Below are positions 17,230 to 54,904 of a DNA stretch of 64,000 nucleotides, in pieces (position 1 is the stretch's first letter; each line of letters opens with the position of its first letter). The notes under the pieces were generated by a model. The model was not told the origin of the DNA. It saw only the letters and a program-made list of their open reading frames with translations, and made no database searches. This stretch comes from Deroplatys truncata (lineage: Eukaryota > Arthropoda > Insecta > Mantodea > Mantidae): assembly GCA_030765065.1 (NCBI GenBank), contig CM060978.1:113813692-113877691 (forward strand). Reading direction: 5' to 3'. The position numbers were made by a program, and so were the translations under genes.

Positions 17230-18458
17230 TACACTATGTGATCAAACGTATCCGGATACCCCCACAAGCATACGTTTTTCATCTTAGGTGCATTGTGCTG
17301 CCACCTACTGCCTGGTGCTCATTATCCGAGACCTCAGTAGTCATTAGACATCGTGAAACAGCAGAATGGGACGCTCCGTGGAACTTACGGACTTCGAACG
17401 TGGTCAGGTGATTGGGTGTCACTTGTGTCAGAAGTCTGTACGCGAGATTTCCACACTCCTAAACATCCCTAGGTCCACTGTTTATGGTGTGATAGTGAAG
17501 TGGAAACGTGAAGGGACATGTACAGCACAAAAGCGTACAGGCCGACCCCGTCTCTGACTGAGACCGCCGAAATTTGAAGAGGTCCGTAAAGAGTAATAGG
17601 AAGACATCTATCCAGACCATCACACAGGAATTCCAAACTGCATCAGGATCCAGTTAGGCAGTTAGGCGCGAGGTGAGAAACCTTGGATTCCATGGTCGAG
17701 CGGCTGCTCATAAGCCACACATCACGCAGGAAAATGTCAAACGACGCCTCGCTTGGTGTAAGCAGCAACATTACACGATTGAACAGTGGCAAAACGTTGT
17801 GTGGAGTGACGAATCACGATACACAATGTGGCGATCCGATGGCAGGGTATGGGTATGGCGAATGCCCGGTGAACGTCATCTGCCAACGTGTGTAGTGCCA
17901 ACAGTGAAATTCGGAGGTGGTGGTGTTATGGTGTGGTCGTGTTTTTCCTAGAGGGGGCTTGCACCTCCTGTTGTTTTGCGTGGCACGATCACAGCGCAGA
18001 CCTACATTGATATTTTAAGCACCTTCTTGCTTCCCACTGTTGAAGAGCAATTCGGGGATGGCGATTGCATCTTTCAACACGATCGAGCACCTGTTCATAC
18101 TGCACGGGCTGTGGTGGAGTGGTTACACAATAACATCCCTGTAATGGACTGACATACACGGAATCCGGACTTGAATCATATAGAACACCTTTGGGATGTT
18201 TTGGAACGCCGACTTGTGCCAGGCCTCACCGACCTACATTGATACCTCTGCTCAGTTCCGCACTCCGTGAAGAATGGGCTGCCATTCCCAAGAAACCTTC
18301 CAGCACCTGATTGAAAGTATACCTGCGAGAGTGAACGCTGTCATCAAGGCTAAGGGTGGGCTAACACCATATTGACTTCCAGCATTACCGATGGAGGGCG
18401 CCACGAACTTTACGTCATTTTCAACCAGGTGTCCGGATACTTTTGATCACGTAGTGTA
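17230..18458 (+). mobile_element. Tc1-like element
   Basis: TA duplications at 17230-17231 and 18457-18458 flank inverted ends: CACTATGTGATCAAACGTAT on the left; on the reverse strand at the right CACTACGTGATCAAAAGTAT. Length is 1.23 kb, normal for Tc1. The ends differ by a few bases and the transposase is broken, so the copy is old. Confidence 0.93.
17366..18365 (+). pseudogene. Tc1-type DDE transposase, broken
   Basis: The start gives MGRSVELTDFERGQVIGCHL, a helix-turn-helix, then the second HTH with the GRPR hook (KRTGRPR, about residues 55-61) and a stop. The DDE part continues in other frames: [27 protein letters not shown] (first Asp), [15 protein letters not shown], then IFQHDRAPVHTARAV (second Asp region) and NPDLNHIEHLWDVLERRL (the Asp-Glu region reads NHIEHLW). 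Several stops and frame changes make it inactive. Confidence 0.92.
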
Positions 18459-18961: not shown

Positions 18962-19042
18962 ATGACTGAAGCAAATCTTGAAAATATTTTTGCACATATT
19001 GATTCTCAGAAAGAGCATTATACGAAGGATTTAGCAGAAATA
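18962..19042 (+). CDS. CNDP2-like gene, exon 1 (start codon)
   Basis: The exon encodes 27 residues, MTEANLENIFAHIDSQKEHY and TKDLAEI, followed at once by the donor GTAAGT. In the family this is the N-terminal helix ahead of the conserved VAIQSVS motif, which opens exon 2 here as VSIESVS. The ATG is the only start that gives the normal family length. A 5' untranslated exon further upstream cannot be excluded. Confidence 0.85.
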
Positions 19043-22000
19043 GTAAGTAAATAATAGAATTATTTTTAGATTCCTTTTACATAATTTACCTCGATCACAG
19101 CAGCAGAACCATTGCAACTTAAAAGGTGGATATTCTGAAAAATGTGTAGTGTTGTGATTCTGAAAGATGCCATAGTGATAAAGGTTAATGTCATTTTCAA
19201 GCTTTAGAAAGTAAAGTGAGAATCCCCAGCTGCTTAGGTCATAGCAGGAAATCCGCTTTAGAGAACTTAATGGAAACTCTTCAAATCACCAAAGCTTAAT
19301 GATAACACTTGGGATAGCCACAGATGAACATAGTTTATTCTACTGTAAAGCGTTTATGTGAATATGCAGGGCATAGACAAAACACCAACCGAGATTCACA
19401 TGGATATTTTCTTATTAATGAAAGAGACAAAAATGATCACATTATTTAAAATAGTTAAAATATTTAAATCTTTGTGTCACATCTTTGGAAGGTACTGAAC
19501 CTAATTACCAAGTTTGATATTTATCCAACTTTTCGTATTTGAGTTATGCTATTCGCACGCGCACGCACACATGCACACGCACACACACACTCTTTCTAAT
19601 TTTTGTGTGCCCTCAGAGTAACTGTGTTTGGCAACGAAGTCTCCCAATTTTCTTTATTATTGTTGTGTCAAATAATATTACCATGGAACTGATCTTAAAG
19701 CGTTTTTTTTATTATTTTTTTTTTATTTTAACCATAGCTTGTCTCGATCTTAAAAGGCAGTATGAAAGTAAATAGGATATATCTGTCTCCTTCTAATGCA
19801 TATATGTTTCCATTAGCTTCGTCCTTTTGACTTTCGCGCTGTCACTAAGTTGCTAATAACATGGTGTAAATATTCATGTTATAATTTTCAGCTTTGAACA
19901 TATTATTCTATGCAGAATATTTTTCTCTTTCAGATTGTACTATTTCTAGAGTCTATAAATTTCTATGGGCACAAATTCCTAAAGAAAACGAGTTTTTCAG
20001 TAAAATAAGATATTTGCTCTACATATGGCAACAGTGCGCCCCATTTAACCTGTGCTGTCTTTTAAGCGTGAGACGCGCTATGAATGGAAAGTAATTGCAA
20101 CACAGACAACAGATATCTGCAGTACGCACAGGCATTTACTCAAGTTGTAACAAGCACTGAAAGGTGGTACGTCAGAAGACGTAAAAGTTCAGTACAAAAC
20201 ATTAGAAAAGGTGAATAAATATATCAGACATTCAAGAAGAATAAAAGCGGAAACTGAATACAAAGAACACTTCTGAATCTCATATACTCGTGATCAGGCC
20301 AAATATCCACATTAGCTTAACTGCAAACTCTTAATGTCGCACAGCACATAAACATTTTATATTGCAGCACGCGAGGGACACTTCTAAATTCACTATTATT
20401 TTTAGCCAAGTTTACAATGTATGCACGTTCACTTATAAATTTCTCGCACTGCATAGGAGAGTTAGGCTCTGTCCATACATTTTCCTTCTCCTTATCATCT
20501 TCTCTCTGTCGCTGAGAATGCCCTTCATCATTGGTCTTCTTCTTCTTCTTCTTCTTCTTCTTCTTCTTCTTCTTCTTCTTCTTCTTCTTCTTCTTCTTCT
20601 GCTCCTGCACCTCCTCCTCATCTTGGTGGAATACATTCATTAGTACTATTTTCTTCCTAAATTCTCATCAAATTTCAATATTAGTAGTTTTGTTGCTATT
20701 ATTTTCATCCACAATGTTATTTTTTTGGTCGACCACACTATAATACACTGCTTACATGTACGTAAGTGAACTGTTATGGCATCCATAATACTTCAGCTAC
20801 TCATTATGATCTTACTCGGCTGCGCGCGCAGCTCGCCCTTCGCCCATACCGTTTAACCAGGACCCTCTAGAAACAACGGACCTGACACTGGGTTCGAGAT
20901 TGAGAAAAATGGCGGCGGTAATTGGTGGTGATCCCTGAGGTGTTTACACTCGCTAACTGCTCGTGCTGTGTTTCCGATGCCTGTGATTTATAGTATTTTA
21001 GCAACTGCGGCAGTTTGTAATCACATTAGCGAAGCAATAGTATTTGAAAACCTTTATTTGAACAATTTGGGAAACGGGAATAGTCCCAGTCATGCGTTTT
21101 CAGTGCCGTGTGCTTTCCAAGTGTTAGTTATGTTTGCTAATACATTACATGTAGATTATGGCTACATTAAATGTAAAGTATAATTATACATTTTGTAATT
21201 TATCTACTTGAGAATATAGTTTGTGTCACGGTTACTGTGGTGAAATAAAGAAATTGTTACAGTTTGGACGTTATAGTTGTAAATATACTTAACCTAAAAC
21301 ATTACAACGCCATTACGTTTCCGGGTGTAAATCGAACTTTGATTATAATGAATAGAGATGCAAATAATTGTGATAAATATTTTAAAATATGCTATATGCA
21401 GTGTTAATTTGATTTATAAAATATATTAAATTTATGTATATTTGTGAGATACAATAAAACAATTATGAGTATTTGAGTGTGTATGTGTATAGTGAGTCCC
21501 AGTTATTCTCATATACCGGAGTAGTGCCATTCATATTTCCAAAATATATTTACAGTTAACATACATAAATCCGTTGTTTCCGACTTAGTTATAGGAAAGG
21601 ATAAATTCCGTTACGGTGGTTCTTTTATAACGGTTCCAAGAAAGTGGTTAAACTGCAGAATCGTGCATTTCTGACTGTTTTAATTCAGCCATCGTATTTA
21701 TGCTGTTACGTTGTTGCATGCAATACTGTAGACTGCATGAATGTTGTTTTGCAATGCTGTTTAAGGTTATGTATTTCATATATTTCACTTGCAGTGCTGG
21801 TTTAAGACTACTTATTTGTTATATTTCAGTCAGTCGGTGTGGACTCTGCAAAAACTAGTAAAGGATACTATAAGTTGCTAAGTGGTATAGTTTCGAATAA
21901 TTATTGCAAACTTATAAATGAAAATCGTTCAGTGAAAGCAAAAGTAACCCTAAAGCTTCTAAATTTAATAGCTAATTACTGTAAACAACGCCATTTCGTG

Positions 22001-25000
22001 CCATCCAGTGTATATTTTGTGCATATAATATTGGGTACAGTGTGATTAACAGTGTAAATAATGACACGTAATTTTGAGTGAACTCAATCAGTGTTAACCT
22101 CAATATCAACAGTTCTGTTTCATGCAAGTATTACAGTGTTTGCAGTTTATAAGACCATGTCCTTTGTAGTTTAAATAAGTAGCCGTAGTTTAGAAATGCT
22201 GTTAAGTTATTACATACAAAACTGTAGACTGCATGAATGTTGTTTGAGGTTACATATTTCATTTAATGTTAAAATGCATTTCGTTTACTTAAAAGACAGC
22301 GTTTTTGTGCACAACAGCATATATTTACACAAAAGATATGTCACTGCACCACATTAATTGTATTTACTGTGGAGAAGTCATAACTTGTAGACAAGAACTG
22401 ATTAAGGCATTTCCCAAATTCCCACCACAAACGGCCGCCATTTTGAATGTCAGTGTCAGGTCCGTTATCCAGAGGGTCCTGGTTTAACACCTTCAAAGCA
22501 GCAATCCACAGGGACCTATTCCCCAAATAAACAATGAAATATGTGTATTTAAAATAAAATAAATTTTGTTCATGTAATTTTAATATTATACTATATAGAG
22601 TTCATTTTCCTTTGCTTTAATGTCTGCCTTTCACCTTATCTACGAAAAATCAATAAATATGGCTTGGACTCAACAGTACTGCCATTTGTTGCACTACTCG
22701 CAAATACGCTCTTAAGGTCCTGCCAGCTGATCAGAATTTAATAACACACAATTAACAAGGTAAAAACGTTTTGTAAAAACTCGAAGTTTTGAAATTTTGT
22801 TCTTCGCTCGTATAGACTCGTTTCATAAACATACTCAAACCTTAAATTACTACCATTATAGTACTACTAACTTCAATTCTTTGTTATATTATTACTATTT
22901 CTATCTCTCCTTGATACTCTTGAATTTCTGTAATCCATTACTATTGCAAAATTGTATTTTTAAAAGCATCTTCAGTTGTCAGGTTCTGCGCCATTACAAA
23001 CATACGCTTTTAACTGATTTGTAGAAAAAAATGCATTTGTTACATTCATATCATTTCTCTATATAGCTTAAATGTATCTCTCTGCTACAAACATAAACTT
23101 CGCGGTTTTAACTTGATCTACTTTATTTGTGCAGTACGCCTCTGTCTCTCTTATGATTTGCCAGTTAATATTTATAACATTCAATCAGAATGAAGAGGAC
23201 TTCATAGCCTCTTCGCAGAAAATACAAAGTATACATTATATCAATCATGCAAACATACCTACGGCATTTTTATAAAAATCGTTGGAGCCATTTTTGAGAG
23301 AATCAAACATAATGAAAATGTTTGCATGTAAGGATAGTCTGGGGTGGGAGGCACTTTCTTGAAAATCTTCATGTCGCACTCCAGGAAAATGTTAAAGATA
23401 CAAGTTTGGTAATAATTAACCTTTGTTTTTGAGTTATACTGCACGCACGGTGGACCTTTCTCTAAAAATAGCTATTTGGGAGAGGGGAACATAGAATTTT
23501 TGTGTAGAACGCAACACTTCCTCTAACCATTATAGGCAGGTGCTTAAAAGAGTAAAAGGAGCAAACTTAATACGCCATCCTTAAAATCATCGCAGAGTAT
23601 TTTCTTGCATGAAAGGAATGAGAAAGAAAGAAACTGCAGTCTTAATTTTCTCCATATTCATCGCAGGAATCACGAATGAGAGAGTAATTAATATGTTATT
23701 TAAAGAAAGAAAGAAGAAGGAAAAAGAAAAGTTTTCAAAACAGTAAATGATTAAAGTTTAGACGAGTTATGGCTGTGATAATTTAAATTATCATTGTTTT
23801 CAAGTACATCTAGGTGGAGTGAGAAGTAATATTTACTCATAATCAATGCGAAGTTTTCCATTATTTCCTCCAGGATTCCCTTACTTTTAAGTGAGTCGGA
23901 CTTCGAGGGGGAAAATAGGGATACAACTGCCCTTATTTTGCTGCACATTTTGCTAAACTAACCACAGTTACATTTCCTAGGATTCCTATATGAGCCCTGC
24001 CAAAACCAAAATTGCATTTTATTATTCTTATGCGATTGTAACTTAATTTCTCGTGGTACAGATGGTGGGTCAGTGTTGTTATAACTCGAATTAGAAATAA
24101 ACTGTAAAAAGTTCTGAAACCCGAGAAAATTAAGGCGATTTCTTCTTCAAATTTCAAAACAGATTCCGAGGCCTTTGGTATGACAAGAATTTCTGCTGAA
24201 GGGATGGATGATAGAGGATTCGGTTTAAATCATTTCTTTCTTAAAAGTTCAGTTTTCTTTTCCCACGACAAAAACGCATATAAACATGCGGAAGCATGCG
24301 CAATAGGTGCGGTAATACAGTTGCATCATTTGTTTATGTACGTAATTTGTAATAATGTTTTTTCCTTGCCTTGCTCTACAGTTCTGCAAACTATTTCTAA
24401 CCATTGTTTCATTTGTATAGCCGCCTCAAACTACACAAGTCTAAGTGTGGATTTCCCTTTCGGAACAATTCTTTCATCTTTCTAACTCGCCGTTTAGATT
24501 ATAATTCCTCGTAACTTTGAAATTGCATTCGCTCCATTAGAGAAACATTTCCCCGGGCCCTTAAAATAGCAAAATCTCACAAATGAAGGGAGATCCGGAT
24601 GTTGAGTTTAGGTTAAGCTAGGTCTTAATAACACCGGATGTTAAGCACTTTCTCTTTTGTATTCACAGGTGAGCATTGAATCCGTGTCAACTGAGCATAC
24701 GCATCGACAGCACTTAACCGAAGCTCTGAATTGGACCGAGAATCGCCTCAAACTTGCGGGAGTAGAATGTAACCGCGTGGACACCGGTGACACTGCAGCG
24801 GACGAATCCTCGCGACTTCCACATATCCTCACGGCTAGCTATTGCCATAAACTGGGCAAGCATACGATACTTGTCTATAGCAATGTCGATGTTGCTCGAG
24901 CAAATCCTCAGGAATGGGAGACATCTCCCTTTGAACTACAGGTAATATGAGCTATGTCCACAAACTGGGCAATCACACTATGCTAGTCTATAGTCATGTC

Positions 25001-28000
25001 AATGTGCTCAGCAAATTCTCAAGAATGAGAGACATCTCCCTTTGGACTACAGGTAATATAAGCTATGTCCACAAACTGGGCAATCACACGATGCTTGTGT
25101 ATAGCCATGTCAACGTACTCAGCAAATTCTCAGGAATGGGAGACATCTCCCTTTGAACTACAGGTAATATGAGCTATGTCCACAAACTGGGCAAACCATG
25201 ATGCCTGCTTATAGTCACGTTGATGTTGCTCGAGCAAATTCTCAGAAATGGAAGACACCTCCCTTTGAACTACAGGTAATATGAGCTATGTCCACAAACT
25301 GGGCAAACCATGATGCCTGCTTATAGTCACGTTGATGTTGCTCGAGCAAATTCTCAGAAATGGAAGACACCTCCCTTTGAACTACAGGTAATAGGAGCTA
25401 TGTCCAAAAACTGGGCACGTAGACAATACTTCTCTATAGCCATGTCGATGTTCTAGACCCCTTCCTGTGAACTACAGGTAAGATGAACTATGCCCACAAT
25501 ACTTCTCTATGCCCATAATAATCTTGCTCGAGCAAACCCTGAAGAGTGGGAGACACTTCCCGGTGAACTACTAGTAATATGAGCTATGCCCAAAAACTGG
25601 GCAAGCACCACATACCCCTCTTTGGCTAAGTCAATGTTGCTCGAGCAAACCCTGGGGAGTGGAAGACACTTCCCTGTGAACTACAGGTTATATGAGCTAT
25701 GTCCAAAAACTGGGCAAGCACCAAATACTCCTCTATGGCTAAGTCAATGTTGCTCGAGCAAACCCTGGGGAGTGGAAGACACTTCCCTGTGAACTACAGG
25801 TTATATGAGCTATGTCCAAAAATTGGGCAAGCACCAAATACTCCTCTATGGCTAAGTCAAAGTTGCTCGAGCAAACCCCGAGGAGTGGGAGACGCCTCCC
25901 GTGGACTACAGGTAATATGAGCTGTGACCAACAACTGGGCAAGCACACAGTACTTCTCTATGTTCATGATGTTGTTCGACCAAATCCTGAAGACTGGAAC
26001 ATCTCTCCGTTTGAACTACAGGTAAGACGATAATTAGAAGATGCAACGAAAGCAATATTAAAGCTGTGAACGTAATGAATTGTCAAAGCATACCCCCGTA
26101 GCTAGGTAATATAGTTAAACAAGATTATTCTGTTCTGGGCTTATTGGTTGCGCTCCCTCTTGGTATAGCAGTGGTCCAGTTTTATTAATGGAGTCCTTGG
26201 GTGGATCCAGGTAGCGTATATGAGAAACTTCAGTCCCTTCCCTTCAGCCATTGCAGAGTCTATGGTGGTGTTCTGTTTTGTAATAGTGCTGTGCCTAAAT
26301 TAATTTTATGAATAGTGTGATTCAGGCACGTGCACACTAATTATATATTTGTGGTACACAACAGGATCACGCACTTAAAATTACTAAATTAAAATGGCTG
26401 CTATATAGGCTGCTATCAAGGGCTGTCTTCATCAGTTTGAAAGTCACCTAAGGATAAAAAAAAAGTTCTAGCCTAAAGGGAATTAATATTATTCAGAATG
26501 AGTATTTTGAGACAGTAATGCTTTAGTAAAGTCACACAACAGTCTTAGGTACAACGAAAATTAATATAAACAACATTTGAATGAATTAAGCGTTTACCGC
26601 ATGTTTTTAGCACATTTTGTCAATCGTTATTGAATATTTATAAATCATACGTATATGAACAATGTCGGAGAATTCAGTAGGGATCTTCAAATATGTTTTT
26701 ATTATTTGAACCTACATTCACTTGTTCAATGAATAAAAGACATGTACGGTACTGAAATTCTTATAGTATGCATTAATGATAACCAGGGTTAGGACTTTTA
26801 GGTGCGCACCTTTTTTCTTAGGATAAGTTAAAGCTGTGCGGAAAGATATCAGTGTGAAATTTTGTTTCTAGTTGCGAGAAGAGGCATTTTTTCTCGCACC
26901 TTTATCCCATTTCCCCCCAACCATGCCCATAATTCCCTTTCTCCCCCTTTTTTCTTTGAATTTTCATTCCAATTTATTCTTTAACTTTCAATTAACGTCT
27001 CCTCAGCTTGCTGTGTTCGTGCGAATAGTAAGCCTACCTCTTTCAGTAAACGCCGCACGGGAATTGAAAGCACACCCATAACAATGAAAAATAATTGTGT
27101 GTTCGACGAAAACCTCTTTCTCTCACTTTACCGCAATAATGCAATTGACAATGGGTGATTCTCTCCCACCAGAATCTGTAGCCTGCAGTGCGTGAATGTG
27201 AGTTTGTTACTGCGAGAGGCGTCATCTGTTTGCGTGGAGGCGAAGGCTGGGCACGCAGAACGGCAGTATCCTCACCCGCGCAGTTCCGAGAATTATTAAG
27301 ACTAAGTTCAGCTCGAAACTACTAGAAATCGCTGAGACTGAAGTTCCAGCAGGAATGAGAACATTCCGGTAATTGTCGCGGTGTTATAAGAGAATGTGGA
27401 CAGCGAATGGGCGCAAGAGTGAGTTGTGTGGCAGTCGCATTGTGTTAGCAAGTGAACTAGTGTTAGCTCTCCAAACGAGTGTACTAGTACTAGATTTTAC
27501 CATGCCAAAGGTGTCCAGTGCTCGATTTATTGTTCTGGCTGAGGAATTCAAACAAGATTTCATAGACACTGATGGAACCGTTATGCGATGTACTATTTGT
27601 GATTCAGGAATTTTGTTAGACGAAAAACACCAGCGAAATCGCATCAAACAACACATTTCCAGCTCTAAGCATCAAATGAACAAGACTCTTCAAGCAAACA
27701 AATCACGGCAACCTCTATTACGAAATGCGTTTCAACAGAGTTCTTCAAAAAGCCAAAATTTCAAAGAATTAAACATTGATTTGTGTGCAGCTCTTACATA
27801 AGCAGGAACTCCACTCAATAAGGTGAACCATCCAGCCTTCAAGGGATTTCTTGAAAAATACACAAAGATGAGAGTACTTTAAGAAAAAAACTACATGAAG
27901 CCATTTTACCAAGAAACCATAGAAAGAATCAAGGAGAAAGTGTCTGATTGCGATGTGGGAATCATTGTGAATGAAACCATAGACTCAATGGAACGATATG

Positions 28001-31000
28001 TTTTGAATATTTTAGTTTTTCCCTTAGCAGGGAAGAAAGATAAGCCCATGTTGTTCAAAATGTACGAGCTGCAGAAAGCCAATGCCAGTACAGTAATGCA
28101 ATCCATTATGGACTTCTGCCAAAAATTCTGGCCTACTGGTATCGAGTTTGAAAAACTTCTTGTGGTTACGGACCAGGCTCCATACATGGTTTCAGCTGTT
28201 AACCAATTGAAACCTTTATTTCCTAACTTGAAGCATTTGACACACTTGGCTCATGCCCTTCACAGGGTTTGTGAACCCATAAGGAACGAATGCGACATCG
28301 CAAATCAATTCATCTCTGCCCTGAAGAAGATTCTACTGAAATCTCCGAGCCGTGTCGTTTACTACAGGGAAATCACTAACCTGCCCCTTCCAAATTTCCC
28401 GGTCATTACTCGCTGGGGATCTTGGATTGAGTGTGTTGCCATGTTGTGTGAGAATTTTGACAAAATTAAAGAGTTTGTGCTTTCTTTGGATCCATCCGAC
28501 ACAGGTGCAATTTCCAAGGCAAGCAACTTCTGTTACCGGAGAAAATACACAATTTGCATACAGAACTATATTGTGTCCATAGTTACAGGTACCTGCCTGC
28601 AGCTATTACACGATTAGAAGGACAAGGTCTGGAAAAGGAAAAACAATGGGATAGTTTTACTTCCGTGAGGTAGGAGTTAGATGACTTTGTCAAAGTTAGA
28701 TGAATCTAGTCTTCAGAAGAATCCAGACATTGAGGAATTCGCCACATCTGTAGAGTTGCCATTCCGAGTGAATACAAGGTTTGCCCCACTGGTTTCTGTG
28801 GATGTTGAAAGAAGCTTTAGCATCTACAAAGACATTCTATCTCCTAATAGAAACAGACTTACTTTAAAAATGTGGAGATGCTTAATGTCTTGAAGTACAA
28901 CAGCTTCATGTTTTTTTCCTTCTTTTGATGAGTGATAATTTGATGTACTTCTTTGTAGTTCAATAATTAGAATAAAGGAAAGATAAATCGTTGAATTAGT
29001 TAAGGGAATGCACAACTGAAACTGAAACTAATCCAAAATCTCAAAAAAATTATGTTCCCCAAAAATTCTCCATCACTTGTAGTTTTAGAATCTTTTATTT
29101 TTGACCTAGCGAACGCTTCAGGATCGTTACGAGACTTTTTAAATACTCTTACGCGTTTGGTTGCTAGCTGTTTATATTTTTAAAACTTCATTTTAAGGTG
29201 TTTCTTATTTTCAGTATTTCTGCATATTCAAAATGTTCACGATGTAGTTTTCATCCATTCATATTGAAATTTTTATGCTTATTTCAAAAACCCAAATAAA
29301 TAAAATTGTCACCTAATTTTTCTGTGTAATGAATAGATTTTGCGCTACCAAATTTTTAAGATAACAATGTATACAAAAAAAAACGAAAAAAAAATGCAAA
29401 TACAAAACCTTTTTTCTTTTAAACTAAGAATGGTAGAAAACAATTATGACATTTGTAGTTCCTTAACATAGAAGCAACATAAGATTTTTTTTAAAAAAAA
29501 TGCATGTGTTGCATTTTGCATATACCCATAATTTTATATTTTGAAAATTAATAACTTGAAAACTAATTAATATTTTGGATTGAAATTCACAAAGCAATTA
29601 AATCTAAAGAAGACTGGCATGTGGTTAAAATGCCAGCCCAATTGAATGTATAGTTTAGAAAATAACAATTTCAGTTGTGCATCCCCTTAAATAAACCAGC
29701 ACCTTGTTGTCCCTTTTTTCACCTTATTTGAGCACCTTTTCCCTTCCTTTTTTCATCTGAAATTTGCATCTAAAAATGCTAACCTTTATGATAACCCTTA
29801 CACATTGCCACAAAATAATAATTGAATAAGATTGAAATTTTCGTTTAAGGTCAGCTCCTATCCTGGTGCCAGAAATTCCCTAAAAGTAAAAATTGTTTCT
29901 GGTTTCGAGAGTAAAAATGTGTCATCGTCTGTAATGTACTGAACAAAAAAATATAAACTGCTAGCTCTATATGACTACAAAATCTGTGGTAGAATCGCTT
30001 GTAAGTACCTACAGGTAAATTTTCAAACAACACGACTTTTCATCCAACTGGGAACTCACAATAGTTATTTTGACAGATTCAGGCACGATGTTCAGAAGTT
30101 TGGAACAAGTAATAATTTTCATCCTTCATACTCAAGAAATTACTCCCGCGTACTGAAATAGCCCCCCCCCCCCGAGATAGGATCCTGATAATTATTTGAC
30201 CTTCACGAACAGATTGAAAGATGATCCAATATTTCCCATTACAAAACGGTTCATTATCCTGCTAATGAACAGCGTGATGTCGTTAATGCTATTTTCGTGA
30301 CATGGAAAAATATTCCTACAATAAAAAGCCGACTAGCATTGTTAAAAAAGACTAGATGAAAAAATCTAATGTTCTGCATTTACATTGCTTTTTCTATTCA
30401 CTCTCATGCAAACTACTCTTACAAAAGCTCATTCTTCTATCTACTTCTTGTTAATAGAGATAAACCTTCATTATATATTTACACGTTTCGTTGTCGGTGT
30501 AAGAAGAATACAGTAAGCTAAAGCGATGGTCAAGTCTTTTCAAAGCCGGCGGCTTTGAATTTGCGTTCTCTTTGCATGAACATGAGGAAGGAGGAAGGAA
30601 GGAAGGAAGGAAGGAAGGAAGGAAGGAAGGAGAGAAAGAAAAGAATAACCAGAATAGGGATTTGCAGTTGAGAAAAGTATAAAGTATTTAAAAATTACAA
30701 CCAGTAACAAAGAATATCCAGGAAATGCTTAATGACACAAAAATTTGACAAGTTGTATACTTTAACGAAATCTGCACTTTTTGTGTAGGTAGTAAGATTT
30801 TGTGCATCTTTTACGGTTTACCAGTTTAGCAGAAGTCATTCAGAATAAAGAGGTCTTCAAAGGTTATTCACAAAAAAGTCAGGATATACATGTTATTTGT
30901 TATGGCAATATCTTAACATATGGTATTTTAATCATAACCATTAGACCATTTTTGAGAAAATAAACATTTTCGAAAATTGTTCCACGTAAGGGTAGTTTGG

Positions 31001-34000: not shown

Positions 34001-36182
34001 TAACGACCTCGACCATCCGTGTTTGTGTTCTCTTGCTGGAAAACCCCAAAGCAGTAGGTACATATACGACCGACACAATTCATGAAATTTCTCCACTGCA
34101 TAGGGAATAACGTAGAATAATGTTAATAAAATGTCAAACTATGGAGGATGTATTTTTCTCTTACCAGCGGCGCTCAGTAATAAACGGTGTGAGAACCGCT
34201 CTCCGCTTTGTGTACTTGGGAACGGGCCTCATTGCTGGCTTTCACATAATTAATTTAATCAATGTCTACCTTAATAATGGTTTTTCTTGTGTACAAACGT
34301 ATGTGGTCATGAGCTTGGTTGTGTTTCCGGCTTGAAGCAAGGTATTATTGTGGTTGCAGGAGAGAGATGGCATGCTGAGGGGCCGTGGAGCCTGCACCAA
34401 AGCGGCGCTCCTGTGCTGGATACATGTTATAGAGGCGTTCCATGCCACGCAAATTTCGGTTCCGTTAAATATCAAGTTCCTGATTGAAGCACTCAAAGAA
34501 AGGGGCAGTGAAGGCCTGACTGACATAGTAGATCAGAAAGGGGTCTTCTTCGACGACGTGGACTTCATATGCGTGCCGGCTGGCGTCTGGCTAGACAACT
34601 CCAAACCTTGCATTAACTACAGTTTGCGGGGATTCCTCCATTTCAAAGTCCAAGTGGTTAGTATCTAAAGACTGCTAGAGGACCATAACTCAGCCTTTTA
34701 TTCCTCGTTTCTCTAGCACTCCACTTAGTTCACAATCTAACCTTACAAACATCAGCGTTATCTACCAGTCTCCAACTTTTCTAAACTGCCTGCCACATTA
34801 AAATTTTAACGAACGTACGGTTCAATAACGATATCACGAAATTTGGTTTCCAGGTTTATATCGAATGCTACACGTTTGACATCTTACCAACATAACATCC
34901 TAAAAAAGAGAAAACAAATTAAGACCTCTTCTTCAGCCATCCACCGGCGATAAGTAGTATTTTAATACTAATATTAGTGGCGCTCTTCTTTGAGGGAGAT
35001 ATTTTTCATACAACTTACATTTTAGAAAGGCTACATTTCTAAGGGTATCTTCTATAATTTCACCTGTGAGTTTTGAAAATGTGTGTGCCTTGGCTCAAGA
35101 CAAGAACTCGGATTAATCCCAAAATCGAAAGTAGTCCAAGAAAAAGGTTTTCTGCGTTTAAATAATTTGTTTATCTTCTCATGAAATCTAATCTTTAAAG
35201 CGTTCTTAAAAAGAATATTCATTAAACTAGCAGAAACAGTCAACGATGCCGGGATCCTTGACAGTTTTGCTAAAACACCAATTTTACACGTTTTGTTTAC
35301 ACTTAAACGAATTAAAGCAATTAAAATATTTTTGATATTCAATTATTTTAAAGTGATCATTAAACCTTCATTGTGCAGAACGTCCCCAATCGCACCAAAA
35401 AAAAATCCTCTGAATTGCCTCTCATACAACATTTTTCAGCCCCATCGCTCATTAGGATGGTTTTTCGCATTACCAACCTTAAAATAATGAAAATAACAAC
35501 ATTCATGCTTTCACTATAGACGAAACAGTACAATTCGTGCTGAATATCCTCAAAATTGTCCCTCGCTGAATATTTTCTACCCACCTCCCGTTGAAGGGGC
35601 TTACTATACCACCCCTAAAATAATGAAGAAAACATCAATTATATTTTTATTTTACAAGAGTATTAAGAAAGCACGACGCCCTTTGGTGCTGAGTAACCTC
35701 AAAATTGCTTCCCGGCAATTGCAACCCTCTTCCATTCTGGGGTGGCTTTTGTAATAGCACTTCTAAGAATTTTTACTCTTGTCCTAAAGAATGTGTGTGT
35801 TAAATTCCCCAATGATAGTGAGAATTAACCAAAGTAGGTACCTCCCATGGAACGACTTTTAATCTCATCTCCAATGGGGGAGCGGGGCGTTTTTGGCATT
35901 AACTCCTCTAAATGAATGAAGAGAGTAACCTCTATCTTTTTATTTAGCACAAGTATTAAGAAAATGGGCCCATTTGTGCTGAAAATCCTCAAAATTGCCT
36001 CCCGCCGAACATTTTTGATATCTTCTTCCGTTCGGGATGGTTTTTTGTAATACCACTCCGCCGTATTTTTATAGTTGCCCTTAAGAGTATCGGACCAAAT
36101 TTGGTCTAAATCGGTGCAAGGGTGTATGGGCTTATAAGGGACATATACACTCGTATACATACGTACCCATTTACTTTGTGTC

Positions 36183-36231
<49 letters not shown>

Positions 36232-39200: not shown

Positions 39201-42200
39201 GGTATCGTGCCTCTAGCTCCGACCATGAGTCCAATCACTTGGATGGAATTGAGATGGTATTTCTTTGTAATATGGAACTGTAGGCTCATATATCCTACAT
39301 TTTTCTGCATGAACTTCCGCCGGTTGTTATGTTCTAATATTGGGTCGATAATGAAACCTGAAGTCCAGCCTGGCGGAATGACGGGCAAATCTATTCTGCG
39401 ACAACATCCATCAGTTGCTAGCCCATGAACTTCCTCGTAAACTGTATGATGATGTTTTCTCAGTGCTTCGGCAATCAGGGACCTAATTTTATGGTGATGA
39501 GTGTTCCTCAAAGTCTCATTCAACGGGCCTGCGCCCAGGACGTGTTTAAGGGTTTCCAACGCCAACATGCAACGCCAATAGTGTTTTCCGCCTTGGGTCC
39601 TGCCAGGAATTGTATGTAGTGGAATGCACCCCGCTCCCTGTCAAGGAATGCTTCATCATATGGGAAATAAGTATTTTCTTTTCCTTCCATTTTATTTCTT
39701 TCTTGCATTTCCCATGGCAGCTGTAGAAGAGCTTTTTCCAAATATCCTTATGCAAGTAACTAATATTACGCAATTCCAGAATCGTTAGCAGCAAGCTCAC
39801 GCGGCCAGGAGCAGATGAGATGGATGGGGAAGGAATGGGCTAGAACGAGCAAATCTGCTACTTTCTTTAAGCTTTTTTTTTTGGGGGGGGGCTTTCCAGT
39901 GGCCGTGAGCTGTCATGGAAATGACGCTTCCACATTCTCATAACGTTCATTGGACTAGCGATCTCTTACACTACGTAAGAGACACTTTAGCTACCAATAC
40001 TCCAGAACGACAGTTTGTTTGACTCTTGGGGTAAGTGACGATAAATTATTGAGAGAAAATTACTATTTCGCCGTATTCATTTGCTTAGGTAATATAGGGC
40101 CGTCTAAACACAGGAAAGCGGAGAAGCACTCTGGAGGCCGCTGATAGGATACTAGACCTCCTAATCTGCAATATTTCCGTACACTTGCACTTCCTCGCCA
40201 AAATGTTGATTATCATTTTAAAAACAGCTGTTACTTTTTGGCTATACGAAACTGTAGTCATTTGCCTTTGGTGAGAACCTGGTCTAAGAAAAGGAGGTAA
40301 GCAGTGCGGAAGCAGTGTATGTTTCTTTTCCTACAGGAAGGCCCTAAACGAGATCTGCATAGTGGCTTCTATGGAGGAATGATCCAGGAACCGCTAGGAG
40401 ATCTCGTATCTCTCCTATCCTCTCTGCAAGATGGTAAGGGACGTATCCGGATACCCGGACTGCGAGACAACGACGTGATGCCAATTACTGACAAGGAGAT
40501 TCGTGACTACCGTGCCTTAGAGATTGATATGGAACACATGCTTAAAGCCAGTGGTGCTACTACGCTAGCGCACAAGGGCGATAAAGTACGAGTACTTCTG
40601 CACACAACTAGGATTCCTTCGATCTCCATTCATGGTGTAGAGGGCGCTTATGCTGGATCTGGACAGAAAACTGTAATACCAGCCAAAGTGGTCGGCAGGT
40701 AAGTTACTCTGTAGCACGCCTTCGTGAAGTAGCGCAACTTCGAAACAATTTTAAAGCATACAGGTATTTTCAAATTTTTAAAAGTTGGTTAGTAAGTTTA
40801 AACTGCCATAGATTAAATAACATTCTTTTTTAGAAATTAATTTGTACCTATACGCTATATACGGAACGCTTTTATAAAGTCCTCTCCTTTATATAGTTAA
40901 AATCTACTCATAAGCTACTGATTTACCGTTCATTACAACCTGGAAAATACTTCTATCACTATATTTCCTGCTTTTTCTGCCGCTGGGATTTAAGAGCTGA
41001 GAAAGCATTGCATTCATTTGAAAAAGCATATGAATGTTCCAAGGAAAACACAATTCTGAAGTCACCTGTATTCACACACACAAACTTCCATTTTTCTTAG
41101 AAAAATATTTGTACATGGCTTGTGTTTTGTAGGTCGATATATTGATCGATCAGACGGTCGGTCGGCCGGTCGGTCGGTGGGTCAGTCAATTAGTTGACAT
41201 TAACTCCAAAACGAAAATTTGCATAAATACCAAACTTTATACTTAGTCCAGTACGGAAGGCAAAGATTTGCAATAAATTACCACCAGTTAATTCGTTATA
41301 TTTTGTTTTAAAAAACGGCTGTAACGATTTTGATAAACGTAATATGTTGAAGTGATGTATGAAATGCCCACATTTACATTTCTGTAACTCAGCTCTGAGA
41401 TACTTTTCATTCTTGTTGAGTTTTATATAATGTGAAACCTTAAGAAGTGGGCAAAAACTTACAGCAAAGAAAAGGTAGATGTTAAGATATAAACAGCCGA
41501 GTGTTGTTGAGATGCAGAGTTTATATTACGTTCATACTGCCTAATTTAAACCATTTCAAGCAAATTTATCCAGCAGATAAAAAACAAGCTTTTGTATGAA
41601 TAATTTGTAGAATAGATATGAAAACGAATAATAATCAATTGAACAAGCAGTTTACCAGCTCACAAACGCAGAGTTTAAAAAAAAAGAGGCAAGCGGAAAA
41701 TAGAAAGGAAAATATTGCGATATAACAATGAGAGATAGAATGCAAAACCAATAAATAAAGAAGAGGACACGATTAAAGGACGCCGCGACCACAGGAAGCT
41801 ACCTAAAATGCAGATGGGTAGTACAGGTTATGAGATAGCACACTAATAGGAGGACACTCTCCTCGAGAACCCATGATTGGTCAGAGGAACGTCGCCAGAC
41901 AGAGAACCCGCTCGGCAGACGAACTAAGAGCAACCTTCGACAGCACATAGACCATGAAAGCCAAAGACAGAAACTTAGAAACAACTGGTGGACATAGAGT
42001 AGGACAATAAGCTAGGTTGATTTCTACCCAAATAGCTAACCGAAACTGGAAAAGCCAGCTAGCTTCCTTACATTTGAAAGAGGTCCTTGTCCAAAAGGGA
42101 TGTATATGGGCTAATTGACTGTCAACACCGATTTTACTTTCTCTACTACGTATAGTAAGTAGGGGAAGTATTGTATTCCACCCAAAAATTCGATACCGAG

Positions 42201-54200: not shown

Positions 54201-54839
54201 ACATACACATCTATTTACAAATGTTGAAATTTGCGTTTCATGCTAGAGACAAGCTTGTACTTTAGGACTGAAGCAACAACTATTCGAGGAATCCCTATCA
54301 AATTGAGTAATACAACTAAACTCTGCATTAGAATATACTGAAGTTGATCCTCGAGCTTCACGATGGGTAAAAATGTATCTTACATTAAATATCAAAGACA
54401 AACTACCCAAAATGTTATGCTTCCTCCAAAATGCAGGTTCTCTGTGCATCTGGTGCCACATCAGACCGTTGAGAAGACCCGCGCGCTGGTGGAAGACCAT
54501 ATAAACAAATCGTGGGCCAGTCGCAAAAGCCCAAATCATCTGGATGTTCATGTTGTAACTTCTGGAGAACCTTGGATTGGTCGCTACGTGGACGTTCACT
54601 TCCAAGCAGCAAGTCGGTCCATCCAGAGAGTGTTTGGCGTACAACCCCAATTAGCTCCCTCAGCATACTCTGTGCCCTTTGCGGCTCACATGCCACCAGG
54701 AACCAATATCGTTATTATGCCAATAGCACGCCCAGCAGACATGCTCAGCGCTCCCAATGAAGGAATATCCTTGGATAACTATGTTGCCTATGTCAAAGTT
54801 TTTGCCGCTTATATCTTTGAGATAAATCAACTACCGTGA
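18962..54839 (+). CDS. CNDP2-like M20 dipeptidase homologue, catalytically impaired, complete five-exon gene
   Basis: Exons 18962-19042, 24669-24941, 34360-34656, 40337-40698 and 54437-54839 join with phases 0, 0, 0 and 2 into 471 codons plus stop. The family's cytosolic non-specific dipeptidase has about 475 residues and the alignment runs end to end, including the last residues (YIFEINQLP). That enzyme cleaves dipeptides such as Cys-Gly with two metal ions and works as a cytosolic dimer. Here the metal site is mostly gone. Asn99 replaces the ligand His, and both Asp of the GRGSTDDKGP motif are missing (GRGACTKAAL, residues 126-135). Lys164 replaces the catalytic Glu, Ala192 a ligand Asp, and Ser442 the last ligand His. 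Asp101, Glu165 and the inter-subunit His225 (DLHSG) remain. No stop or frameshift occurs, so I infer a retained non-catalytic role. There is no signal peptide. No promoter was recognised. Confidence 0.92.
19466..19600 (-). repeat. Fragment of the TACTTTCTCTAC dispersed repeat
   Basis: Almost identical to 11836-11970, including the shared CA-rich tract. Other family members differ from each other far more. Confidence 0.9.
20537..20600. repeat. (CTT)n microsatellite
   Basis: About 21 CTT units on the plus strand. The apparent poly-Leu, poly-Lys or poly-Arg frames here are artefacts of this repeat. Confidence 0.97.
20853..22487. mobile_element. TTAA-flanked inverted-repeat element, non-coding
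   Basis: Left end TTAACCAGGACCCTCTAGA at 20853; right end, read on the minus strand from 22487, TTAAACCAGGACCCTCTGGA. The similarity continues inward (AACGGACCTGACACTG, then AAAATGGCGGC). TTAA at both ends suggests a piggyBac-type target site; TTTAA is equally possible from the flanks. The 1.6-kb interior has no transposase. It has a repeated block (ACTGTAGACTGCATGAATGT) at about 21727 and 22222. It looks like a non-autonomous element in intron 1. Confidence 0.75.
22488..24668. other. Intron 1 of the CNDP2-like gene, last part
   Basis: Apart from the dispersed-repeat fragment at 23168-23545, nothing recognised. The last 15 bases carry the pyrimidine-rich acceptor of exon 2. Confidence 0.5.
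23168..23545 (-). repeat. Fragment of the TACTTTCTCTAC dispersed repeat
   Basis: Reverse-orientation, diverged. Blocks such as GAAAATCTTCATGTCGCA and CAAGTTTGGTAATAATTAACC correspond to the middle of the family. Confidence 0.75.
24669..24941 (+). CDS. CNDP2-like gene, exon 2
   Basis: Acceptor gtattcacag, 91 codons (residues 28-118), donor CTACAG|GTAATA. It covers the first half of the catalytic domain, from VSIESVS to WETSPFELQ. The motif that is YGHLDV in active members reads YSNVDV here (residues 97-102), so the first metal-binding His is Asn while the neighbouring Asp is kept. The last ~108 bp of the exon plus the donor are the founder of the tandem array that follows. Confidence 0.92.
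24834..26030 (+). repeat. Tandem array of exon-2 3' ends with splice donors (10 copies plus founder)
   Basis: The first unit, 24834-24950, is the end of exon 2 plus GTAATATGA of intron 2. Ten copies follow, starting at 24951, 25062, 25173, 25285, 25397, 25487, 25583, 25696, 25809 and 25921. Most are 110-113 bp; two are shortened (90 and 96 bp). Units share GCTATGTCCACAAACTGGGC, TTGCTCGAGCAAA and AACTACAGGTAAT. Units 3 and 4 are almost identical, as are 7 and 8, showing repeated local duplication. Eight of ten keep CAG|GT(A/T)A at the donor position; unit 6 has CTAGTAAT. Confidence 0.95.
26031..26783. other. Intron 2 of the CNDP2-like gene, no gene seen
   Basis: AT-rich, ends with the 8-bp ATGATAAC target copy (26776-26783) of the hAT insertion. 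Confidence 0.55.
26784..29787 (+). mobile_element. hAT element with 8-bp target duplication
   Basis: ATGATAAC occurs directly before 26784 and again directly after 29787. The ends are imperfect inverted repeats: CAGGGTTAGGACTTTTAGGTGC on the left; on the reverse strand at the right AAAGGTTAGCATTTTTAGATGC. An 8-bp duplication and short inverted ends are typical of hAT. It holds one broken transposase (27502-28893) on the same strand. It lies in intron 2 of the dipeptidase-like gene. Confidence 0.92.
27502..28893 (+). pseudogene. hAT transposase (CGGBP1-related type), broken
   Basis: It starts MPKVSSARFIVLAEEFKQDF with a BED/C2HC-like finger: CTICDSGILL then HQRNRIKQHISSSKH. Stops at about 27799 and 27880 break it. 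A 240-codon frame (27895-28617) carries the core: DVGIIVNETIDSMERYVLNI and FEKLLVVTDQAPYMVSAVNQ, then KHLTHLAHALHRVCEPIRN. The last part gives the hAT C-terminal signature APLVSVDVERSFSIYKDIL then SPNRNRLT. The order and lengths fit the finger-plus-hAT proteins that gave rise to vertebrate CGGBP1. At least three breaks exist, so it is inactive. Confidence 0.88.
29796..30414. other. Intron 2, no gene seen
   Basis: Nothing recognised apart from a short C run near 30164. Confidence 0.5.
30415..31236 (-). repeat. TACTTTCTCTAC dispersed repeat, diverged
   Basis: Reverse-orientation copy with most blocks in order, from the degraded start at 31236 (TTACTTAACTATAGTAAGTAGG on the minus strand) to about 30415. 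A GGAA tetranucleotide array lies inside, at 30591-30630. Confidence 0.8.
30591..30630. repeat. (GGAA)n microsatellite
   Basis: About nine units of GGAA/AAGG. Confidence 0.95.
31237..32870. other. Intron 2, SINE head and unassigned sequence
   Basis: Contains a tRNA-like head at 31796-31905. I see no exon; the few open frames have no matched splice sites. Confidence 0.45.
31796..31905 (+). repeat. tRNA-derived SINE head
   Basis: A-box-like TCAGTCGCCAGAGCGTTTGG and a strong B box, GCAGGTTCGAATCCC, at tRNA spacing, followed by a non-tRNA tail with TGTGTG repeats. The cloverleaf is not complete, so it is a SINE head and not a tRNA gene. Confidence 0.65.
32885..33450 (+). repeat. Repeat with ~141-bp tandem units; partner of 51270-51625
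   Basis: TTTTGTTCAAACTC-type motifs occur at about 33092, 33229 and 33374, a spacing of 137-145 bp, each preceded by a TTTTGTA(C/G)CGATT block. The same order of blocks is found in reverse at 51270-51625 (CGCCTAAA..ATTTGTAGGA, AGTTTCAAAG, CGTTTGCAGT). This is a dispersed repeat with internal tandem structure. Confidence 0.75.
33758..34027 (-). repeat. tRNA-derived SINE, family 4
   Basis: The minus-strand head reads GGTCGAGGTCGTTAAGATAG (A-box-like) and CACAGTTCAAATCCAGCC (B-box-like). The body, TTTAACG(C/T)CCGTT..TTACA..GGTACCACA.GCGGTG, is shared with 63613-63838. Confidence 0.75.
34360..34656 (+). CDS. CNDP2-like gene, exon 3
   Basis: Acceptor gtggttgcag, 99 codons (residues 119-217), donor GTG|GTTAGT. 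It carries three catalytic motifs, all altered: GRGACTKAALLCW (one residue short and without the Asp pair), EALKERGSEGL (catalytic Glu to Lys, following ligand Glu kept) and CVPAGVWLDNSKPC (ligand Asp to Ala). Surrounding structural motifs stay conserved (GSEGL, DDVDFICV, KPCINYSLRG). The exon is markedly richer in GC than its flanks. Confidence 0.92.
34657..35390. other. Intron 3 of the CNDP2-like gene, first part
   Basis: No gene or repeat family recognised. Confidence 0.45.
35391..36150. repeat. Diverged tandem repeat, period about 145 bp
   Basis: CCTCAAAATTGC(C/T)TCCCGCC-like motifs occur at about 35407, 35548, 35697 and 35987 (spacings 141, 149 and 2 x 145). Between them recur TATTAAGAAA and ATCTTTTTATTTTACAAG-like blocks. 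About five units with one degraded. Confidence 0.65.
36183..36231. repeat. (GT)n microsatellite
   Basis: About 22 GT units, just before the tail of a SINE. Confidence 0.97.
36236..36530 (-). repeat. tRNA-derived SINE, family 1
   Basis: On the minus strand: head GTCGTCCTACGTGGTGTAG with GTGGTGTAGTGGTTACC (A box) and GGTCGCGGGTTGAAACCC (B box). Then the body GGCGGAGGGTGATGG, TTCGGACGTAAA, TTCGGAAGGGAAGTAAAGC, and the tail with ATAAATAAAACCCAA. Full-length copy. Other copies lie at 43567, 52432 and 57501. Confidence 0.92.
36718..37728 (-). pseudogene. Tc1/mariner-related transposase relic (insect DUF4817 type)
   Basis: On the minus strand it starts MAGNYSVEDGKWIVKVYWKC at 37728 and reaches a TAA at 36718. 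Readable blocks in several frames are RRMLKTLHMKSYHRRLFQDD, AFQLSGHADKHN, NPNVIMETALNQPGV, the degenerate QDGAPPHF, then WPPRSPDFAPMD and LQLCINAEGGPL. These are in the order found in the DUF4817-plus-DDE transposases that are abundant in insects. Many stops are present. Length (337 codons' worth) is close to full. Terminal repeats were not identified. Confidence 0.85.
37729..39079. other. Intron 3, no gene seen
   Basis: A short GCG-rich microsatellite (38768-38790) stands out. Nothing else recognised. Confidence 0.5.
39080..39700 (-). pseudogene. LINE polyprotein C-terminal fragment with nuclease-like domain
   Basis: On the minus strand, upstream of and within 39568-39080, one frame reads GGKHYWRCMLALETLKHVLG, NTHHHKIRSLIAEALRKHHH, RRIDLPVI, GFIIDPILEHN and VIGLMVGARGTIP. 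This order is seen at the C-terminus of arthropod non-LTR reverse transcriptases: a Cys/His knuckle, then a domain with a conserved Asp pair that resembles restriction-type nucleases. The reverse transcriptase itself is absent, so this is a 5'-truncated 3' end. The family assignment is from recalled motifs. Confidence 0.75.
39701..40336. other. End of intron 3
   Basis: Nothing recognised until the acceptor of exon 4. A T run and G run lie at 39873-39890. Confidence 0.5.
40337..40698 (+). CDS. CNDP2-like gene, exon 4
   Basis: Acceptor tttcctacag, 120 codons plus two bases (residues 218-337), donor GGCAG|GTAAGT. This is the dimerisation (lid) domain: KRDLHSGFYGG with the His that completes the partner's active site, ITDKEIRDYRALEIDME, and IPSISIHGVEGAYAGSGQKT followed by VIPAKVVGR. 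It is the best conserved exon, with all family landmarks recognisable, which fits conserved folding and dimerisation rather than decay. Confidence 0.94.
40699..42134. other. Intron 4, first part
   Basis: Contains a diverged fragment of the dispersed repeat (about 41190-41405) next to a CGGT microsatellite (41155-41182). Nothing else recognised. Confidence 0.5.
41190..41405 (+). repeat. Diverged fragment of the TACTTTCTCTAC dispersed repeat
   Basis: Blocks TTAACTCCAAAACGAAAAT, ATAAATACCAAACTTTATACTTAG and GTAACGATTTTGATAAACGTAAT follow the family order. Confidence 0.65.
42135..42937 (+). repeat. TACTTTCTCTAC dispersed repeat, full-length single copy
   Basis: The cleanest copy: 803 bp from TACTTTCTCTACTACGTATA to GTAGAGAAAGT, with no insertion. 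Blocks in order: CCCAAAAATTCGATACCGAG, (TG)n, CATAACTCAGAAACGAACAG, ACCAAACTTGGTATTTAGGT, GAGATGCGACACGAAGG, ATTTTCTGGGAATG and the TTTTCGAGATATTG block. No frame is conserved between copies, so it is non-coding. Confidence 0.9.
42938..44920. other. Intron 4, SINE and unassigned sequence
   Basis: Apart from the family-1 SINE at 43567-43851 and a CAGA-rich microsatellite at about 43955-44030, nothing recognised. Confidence 0.5.
43567..43851 (-). repeat. tRNA-derived SINE, family 1
   Basis: Same order of blocks as 36236-36530, reversed: tail TTGAGTTTTATTTATGAACG, body, then head GGGTTTGAACCCGCG (B box) and GGAGGACGAC at the end. The A-box part is shortened. Confidence 0.9.
45510..46740 (+). 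pseudogene. Jockey-like LINE ORF1 (gag-like), broken
   Basis: Readable in several frames. The 45659-45958 frame has MRVEMHKTLNSSCGVVNIRA and GEFVPTRTLFLTFDQ with IKAGYEPLKLGHIYPPAE. After a frame change come CQRFGHTSDFC, CVNCGEFS and VNCSGEHPSSSQEW, the CCHC knuckles that bind RNA. 46180-46740 encodes a Ser/Lys/Pro-rich tail (SKSAPISAKSVTDKIPSAKS). At least three breaks. Confidence 0.8.
46770..47860 (+). pseudogene. Jockey-like LINE ORF2, endonuclease part, broken
   Basis: Starts MTILQWNIRGIRTHRPELEF with the WNIRG motif of AP-type endonucleases. LLVGDVNAHHAL is the catalytic GDFNAHH motif. LDIAVCSPQLAVS and LHSGDHFPCLIIL are the usual following motifs. Then RLDQANWNLYSQ and SFNRHTPSYIV of the linker before the reverse transcriptase. 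The sequence ends there. Stops and frame changes are frequent. Confidence 0.8.
47911..49168 (+). mobile_element. mariner element
   Basis: TA at 47911 and 49167-49168. Inverted ends: left TACGAGGCGTGTTCTTAAAG; on the reverse strand at the right TACGAGGCGCGTTTCTAAAG, both followed by TAAGTA. 1.26 kb, the standard mariner length. Lies in intron 4 next to the LINE remnant. Confidence 0.93.
48050..49075 (+). pseudogene. mariner transposase, broken
   Basis: Readable blocks: IHRQLYEVYGKTIMSDGMVR in the DNA-binding part, LTDEHKKKRHAAALTFLA, RKVVCTVFWDSQGVLLVEFL after the first Asp region, a ruined HDNARPH motif at about 48770, and a clear PYSPDLAPSDFHL motif at about 48857 with KKFLGGKHL after it. 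Order and spacing are those of mariner transposases (the SETMAR-related group). Many stops and frame changes. Confidence 0.9.
49169..51265. other. Intron 4, no gene seen
   Basis: Contains only a 160-bp hairpin-ended segment (50448-50607). Open frames are short and unconvincing. Confidence 0.5.
50448..50607. repeat. Short element with inverted ends
   Basis: CTTCTTCCTCG near 50453 is mirrored by CGAGGAAGAAG near 50596. The interior is GC-rich relative to its surroundings (GGACTGACACTCCCAAGGAC, TCCCGGGTAGGTGATCAGCC). Only one copy in the window, so the MITE-like reading is tentative. Confidence 0.4.
51270..51625 (-). repeat. Reverse partner of the repeat at 32885-33450
   Basis: On the minus strand, AAAAATTAAATAAACTGC..CGTTTGCAGT, AGTTTCAAAG..CTCGGTT, CGCCTAAAAATTGAAAATTT, TTTTGTACCGATT and TTTTGTTCAAACTC come in the same order as on the plus strand at 32885-33450. 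Fewer tandem units remain here. Confidence 0.7.
51700..51790 (+). repeat. tRNA-derived SINE head
   Basis: A-box-like GCGTGGTGTAGTAGTATA and B-box-like GGGTTTCGATTCCCC. The cloverleaf is imperfect. No body family recognised. Confidence 0.6.
52432..52662 (+). repeat. tRNA-derived SINE, family 1, without tRNA head
   Basis: Starts in the body (CCCAGCGGAGGGCGATGG) and runs to the tail (CATAAAACTCAATTTAAT). The A and B boxes are lost. Confidence 0.88.
52663..54436. other. End of intron 4, no gene seen
   Basis: Nothing recognised before the acceptor of exon 5. Confidence 0.5.
54437..54839 (+). CDS. CNDP2-like gene, exon 5 (terminal)
   Basis: Acceptor ccaaaatgcag; the first base completes the split Arg codon, so VVGR runs into FSVHLVP as in the family (VVGKFSIRLVP). 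It encodes residues 338-471 and a TGA. It returns to the catalytic domain: GEPWIGRYVDVHFQAASRSI, FGVQPQL and NIVIMPIARPADML. The last metal ligand, His in DDGAHSQNE, is Ser442 in DMLSAPNE. The end (YVKVFAAYIFEINQLP) matches the family's C-terminus. Confidence 0.93.
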
Positions 54840-54898: not shown

Positions 54899-54904
54899 AA
54901 TAAA
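54899..54904 (+). promoter_or_regulatory. Polyadenylation signal AATAAA of the CNDP2-like gene
   Basis: A canonical AATAAA lies 60 bp after the stop, giving a short 3' untranslated region. A T/GT-rich stretch (AACTTGTTCTC) follows. Confidence 0.65.

Follow-up and report, generated by a model that had tools for sequence, protein, structure and literature searches.

The window analysed here, i.e. the whole 64,000-nucleotide stretch of Deroplatys truncata DNA, carries a full-length homologue of the dipeptidase CNDP2 (family M20A) in which the di-metal site, the catalytic base and most substrate-binding residues of the protein's own (cis) active site are absent, while every family-invariant position around His225 and Thr329 is kept. 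Taken as one statement, the proposal that this gene is a fast-diverged CNDP2 paralogue turned pseudoenzyme, which would donate residues in trans to an active CNDP2, is the leading explanation, although it is held with somewhat less than even confidence.

The gene consists of five exons on the plus strand (18962-54839) with lengths of 81, 273, 297, 362 and 403 nt, the last including the stop codon, and translation of the joined exons gives a stop-free frame of 471 codons. Exon 1 (18962-19042) starts with ATG and comprises codons 1-27, exon 2 (24669-24941) comprises codons 28-118 with Asn99 (AAT) replacing a metal-binding His, and exon 3 (34360-34656) covers codons 119-217, in which the bridging Asp is deleted (GRGACTKAALL), Lys164 stands for the catalytic Glu and Ala192 for an Asp, and Glu165 is kept. 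The first part of the lid/dimerisation domain, including the retained segments DLHSG (His225) and KTVIP (Thr329), is encoded by exon 4 (40337-40698). Exon 5 (54437-54839) contributes His342 for Arg343, PSAY for REGG and Ser442 for His445 and ends with the stop codon TGA (54837-54839), and a poly(A) signal AATAAA on the same strand (54899-54904) starts 60 nt past the stop. All four introns have GT-AG borders and lie in phases 0, 0, 0 and 2. Hence, the intact gene proposed in the initial annotation (five exons, four introns, 471 codons without stop, poly(A) signal) was confirmed from bases and translation; neither stops nor frameshifts nor intron loss, as expected of a decayed or processed pseudogene, were found. 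An assembly or annotation artefact is unlikely, as five exons with GT-AG borders give one full-length frame. Within the window, no second exon set was detected outside the exons and an exon-2-derived array in intron 2, neither when the query and four relatives were run in tblastn (no match with E <0.09) nor in a blastn scan with the exons (no match at E 1e-3). Among other features of the window are a fragment of PF01498 (Tc3-type transposase domain) upstream of exon 1 (17658-17951, E 4.5e-7, just below the curated cut-off) and a match to DUF659, a domain known from hAT-type transposases, inside intron 2 (27883-28617, E 7e-7, below the curated cut-off). A tRNA-Ser(gga) gene or tRNA-derived repeat lies at 3417-3491 on the minus strand, and intron 1 harbours a perfect (TCT)22 microsatellite (20535-20600).

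Among solved structures, the nearest proteins are the cytosolic non-specific dipeptidases CN2/CNDP2 (2zof, E 4e-106 over residues 6-470, and 4ruh). Homology is full-length, and both Pfam domains score above their cut-offs (PF01546, M20, 58.4 bits vs 24.6; PF07687, M20_dimer, 34 vs 21), which places the protein in the CNDP2/M20A family. In the protein database, the full protein gave 33 matches (38% identity for the top-scoring one and, as the highest value, 41% across 71% of the query), residues 94-225 gave no match from 128 candidates, and exons 4-5 gave 461 matches, with 43% identity for the best-scoring and 49% over 57% of the query for the highest among the 120 listed. An orthologue was found with none of these three queries, for exons 4-5 among the 120 listed matches, in a database whose coverage of this lineage is uncertain. 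The initial annotation had named the lack of any orthologue in related species, which would mean a recent pseudogene, as an outcome that would refute its reading, and with that uncertain coverage this outcome was obtained in part. It counts against an old, widely conserved role, and it also keeps alive a rival explanation, namely that a divergent active paralogue has lost its function recently and has yet to accumulate stops. In a tree of 14 of the 149 proteins fetched, the query groups with seven rows, those with names being insects, at a fork drawn as open (93/99). Its end branch measures 3.56 changes per column vs 0.18-0.40 in these seven nearest rows; long branches are also seen for two distant rows (2.25 and over 5).

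Metal ligands of CNDP2, whose sites are given here in mouse numbering, are His99, Asp132, Glu167, Asp195 and His445 according to an excerpt of PMC6271292. Comparison with an alignment of 17 of the 33 full-protein matches, the activity of which is assumed from their residues only, revealed that His99 is replaced by Asn99, Asp195 by Ala192 and His445 by Ser442 in the query, while Asp132 is deleted (a one-residue gap after residue 130) and Glu167 is retained as Glu165. In addition, the catalytic Glu166 has become Lys164. The metal-site loss read earlier from the bare sequence (Asn99, missing Asp, Ala192, Ser442 and Lys164, with Glu165 and His225 kept) is thus borne out. Beyond it, the comparison added His342 for Arg343, a residue in ionic contact to bestatin, V194 for Tyr197, PSAY for REGG and the array in intron 2; Gln103 is changed to Ala as well. 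Against what is expected of a CNDP2/M20A enzyme, the five-ligand set, the catalytic Glu166 and Arg343 are therefore incomplete or lost, whereas the trans residues His228 (query His225) and Thr330 (query Thr329) are both in place, and the protein resembles a pseudopeptidase in that its catalytic residues are gone from an otherwise intact homologue. All 17 aligned relatives share His99, Asp132, Glu166, Asp195 and Arg343, and each of the 15 rows that extend to position 445 has His there. None of the 149 fetched homologues, many of them partial, exhibits the query's substitution set (His99 is covered in 117, Asp132 in 127 and His445 in 104), and Arg343 is Arg in 149/149. Of the 149, 17 deviate from the expected letter, or have a gap, at a position that they cover, 15 of them at one position only and two at several (mostly gaps): in twelve the C-terminal His alone is affected, two have a gap at His99, one has Thr at Glu167, and P0044 and P0143 show gaps or changes at three and four positions. 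That the protein is an enzyme whose chemistry has changed to a metal-poor or one-metal type, with the retained Glu165 acting together with new residues, is extremely improbable, as the catalytic Glu is Lys, the bridging Asp is deleted, Arg343 is gone and no sign of a replacement centre is seen.

Mammalian CNDP2 is described in part of PMC6421639 as active only as a homodimer. In the docking model presented in an excerpt of PMC12655758, bestatin touches Arg343, Tyr197, Glu166, Ser417, Gly416 and His380 of chain A and Thr330 and His228 of chain B; during the simulation from the same source, the Thr330 bond persisted, while the His228 hydrogen bond was lost and a hydrophobic contact to His228 appeared. 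Since the active site is common to both chains, a subunit without its cis but with its trans residues could still complete the site of a partner. In the query, 15/34 family-invariant columns near its own active site are retained vs 67/85 elsewhere (Fisher 4e-4), and the trans windows around His228 and Thr330 keep 11 of 11 such columns vs the 15/34 in cis (Fisher 1e-3), both types of window being defined as the family-invariant columns within four positions. The difference between the trans windows and the rest of the fold is not significant (p 0.06-0.11; p 0.11 for 56/74). A hand-made list of ligands and bestatin contacts gives 2/13 cis vs 2/3 trans residues kept (p 0.14), a count that leaves out the chain A contacts Leu210, Ile418 and Pro419, named in the excerpt of PMC12655758 only for another inhibitor and kept in two of the three cases. 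The asymmetry between cis and trans (15/34 vs 11/11) lends some support to the earlier suggestion of a non-catalytic partner. Peptide binding in the old pocket, also proposed in the initial annotation, is weakened because most substrate-binding residues of the query's own site are gone, too. The same counts can be read for a homodimeric or monomeric pseudoenzyme with a CNDP2-like fold, the pocket of which would bind another ligand or a protein without any active partner: fold residues are kept (67/85), changes are concentrated in the pocket (19/34 active-site-near invariants altered), and inactive metallopeptidase homologues in such roles are reviewed in a section of PMC11266112. Such repurposing offers no special reason for the intact trans residues and windows (11/11); however, dimer structure alone might suffice for these, the contrast with the fold being non-significant. 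All in all, this alternative is rather unlikely.

Away from the active site, the query keeps the consensus residue at 67/85 invariant, 28/57 strongly conserved, 51/141 moderately conserved and 24/132 variable positions (24/134 under a slightly different column filter). Uniform decay of an ordinary family member, scaled to the loss at variable columns, would leave 0.53 of the invariant positions vs 0.79 observed (p 8e-7; leave-one-out control on 10 of the 17 rows), a test which cannot separate old functional divergence from later decay. A second argument separates the two to some extent. With no stop and no frameshift in the gene, a neutral phase can have comprised at most about 101 substitutions if only nonsense changes (3% of random changes) are considered, and at about 49 with a frameshift rate derived from the array (3 indels per ~94 substitutions); these bounds assume random hits, a simple mutation model and three array indels counted by eye. 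A neutral phase of this length (49-101 substitutions) would be expected to hit 0.4-0.9 of six catalytic codons. As five of the six are lost (P 1e-5 to 4e-4), most of these losses probably came while the frame was maintained, which would mean that selection held the frame as they accumulated. Since a neutral phase long enough for the losses would probably leave stops or frameshifts, selection for a non-catalytic protein is likely. The selection claim of the initial annotation hence gains indirect support, from the excess of kept invariants over uniform decay (67/85 with 0.53 predicted) and from the frame-keeping bound. A young pseudogene fares unevenly under the same arithmetic: after 71 neutral substitutions a stop-free frame has a probability of 0.12 for nonsense changes alone, yet a clean frame one of 0.01 once the frameshift rate of the array is added. 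From those 71 changes, 0.6 hits would be expected among the six catalytic codons, of which five are lost (P 6e-5), and 12 among the 119 invariant residues, of which 37 are lost overall (P 5e-10). Young decay is consistent with the orthologue search above and with two properties of exon 2 treated below, namely a loss of His99 that parsimony places after the array had formed, on a short exon branch, and a weak third-position bias in the 3' end of the exon. This explanation is considered unlikely, though it ranks directly behind a repurposed pseudoenzyme without an active partner.

The array preserves part of the gene's history. Directly behind exon 2, intron 2 contains ten tandem copies (24950-26029, plus strand; mostly 110-113 nt, two partial), the repeat unit of which corresponds to the last 105 nt of exon 2 (24837-24941, plus strand) plus the splice donor. 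Codon 99, AAT in the exon, reads His (CAT or CAC) in seven copies, a stop (TAA) in three and Asn in none; eight copies were taken from an alignment, with copy 10 aligned across its deletion, and copies 5 and 6 were read separately. Relative to the exon frame, 2 nt are deleted in copies 1 and 2 and 1 nt in copies 3 and 4, copy 5 is cut short, and copy 6 is a rearranged unit. Copies 7-9 carry the TAA at codon 99, copy 9 in addition a 1-nt deletion, and retain before this codon the GGC (Gly) of the active motif YGHLDV. Of the intron copies, only the last and most diverged, copy 10 (25920-26029), can still be read through in the exon frame, one codon short; its donor is GTAAGA. This openness may be accidental, or the copy may represent the place where the exon-2 duplication originally ended. 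Because most copies read His and none Asn, Asn99 is by parsimony younger than the array: the metal-binding His99 would have been present when the array formed and lost afterwards, probably late among the ligand losses. The flanking sequence of the copies already resembles that of the query, and exchange between exon and array could blur the order at codon 99.

In a tree of the array without the two partial copies, the exon branch measures about 0.05 substitutions per site. When copy 10 serves as outgroup, 3-8 private changes are counted in the exon vs 9-12 per intron copy in seven non-independent comparisons of raw counts, a difference in the direction that constraint would produce. If copy 8 takes this role, five of the seven comparisons agree and two, with its close kin copies 7 and 9, are reversed. 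Differences between exon and copies in the 105-nt segment exhibit a mild third-position bias (e.g. 5, 4, 10), roughly as strong as between the copies themselves. Since this gives third codon positions no clear preference, constraint on this segment finds no support there.

The array may also be a source of poison splicing. From 24939 to 26019, ten CAG|GT donor-like sites are found, i.e. exon 2's own and nine in the array, with GTAAGA at 25475 and 26019, and past Gln118 the exon frame runs V-I-stop (TGA). Hence, use of any later donor reads straight into TGA, by which the mRNA would be truncated or degraded. The ten donor-like sites, two of them with GTAAGA, and the V-I-stop continuation speak for a gene that is transcribed but mostly mis-spliced in this manner. 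The first donor, which adjoins the full exon, is nevertheless intact, and a frame open across all five exons would be unexpected if no full mRNA were made; this possibility is regarded as very unlikely. Searches of open-licence PMC papers for exon-derived intronic arrays led only to work on earthworm metallothionein genes.

According to the favoured proposal of a residue-donating partner, the protein would fold and dimerise, probably with an active CNDP2, whose active site it would supply with His225 and Thr329, its own site being dead. In this way the pseudoenzyme might tune the active enzyme in amount, stability or specificity. Drosophila has a single CNDP2 gene according to part of PMC6421639, so no partner system is known there, which counts against such a partner. 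The proposal ranks first nevertheless, followed by the repurposed pseudoenzyme that has no such partner and then by the young pseudogene. Its most specific version, a trans-donor paralogue that has wholly shed its cis site, kept its partner-facing residues and forms half-site heterodimers, with an order of loss partly readable from the array, is possible but doubtful. When an enzyme turns into a non-enzyme, as a rule only the initial and final states can be observed. In this gene, older states of one active-site codon are preserved in an intronic array, so that part of the order and timing of inactivation becomes directly studyable. If the heterodimer is real, the gene would provide an M20-family case of a subunit retaining just its half of a shared active site.

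Searches limited to open-licence PMC papers turned up no pseudoenzyme of family M20, and in the review PMC11266112 'M20' occurs at two places only, both in the reference list. With CNDP2/CN2 (M20A; PDB 2zof, 2zog, 4ruh), the query has in common the domain order, full-length homology and the DLHSG and KTVIP segments, but it lacks four of the five metal ligands, the catalytic Glu, Arg343, Tyr197 and the REGG motif of that enzyme. The CPGL-B isoform of human CNDP2, mentioned in part of PMC6421639, goes without part of the catalytic domain; it is, however, an isoform missing sequence, while the query gene is full-length and has its catalytic residues substituted. Gone early, an M13 pseudopeptidase of Drosophila, is a membrane protein and belongs to another family than the query. 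The mitochondrial processing peptidase is from a different peptidase family, too, and in the query's case both partner and complex are hypothetical. Yet, as outlined in a section of PMC11266112, its alpha subunit, an M16 pseudopeptidase without metal site, contributes residues to the active beta partner, which resembles the logic proposed here.
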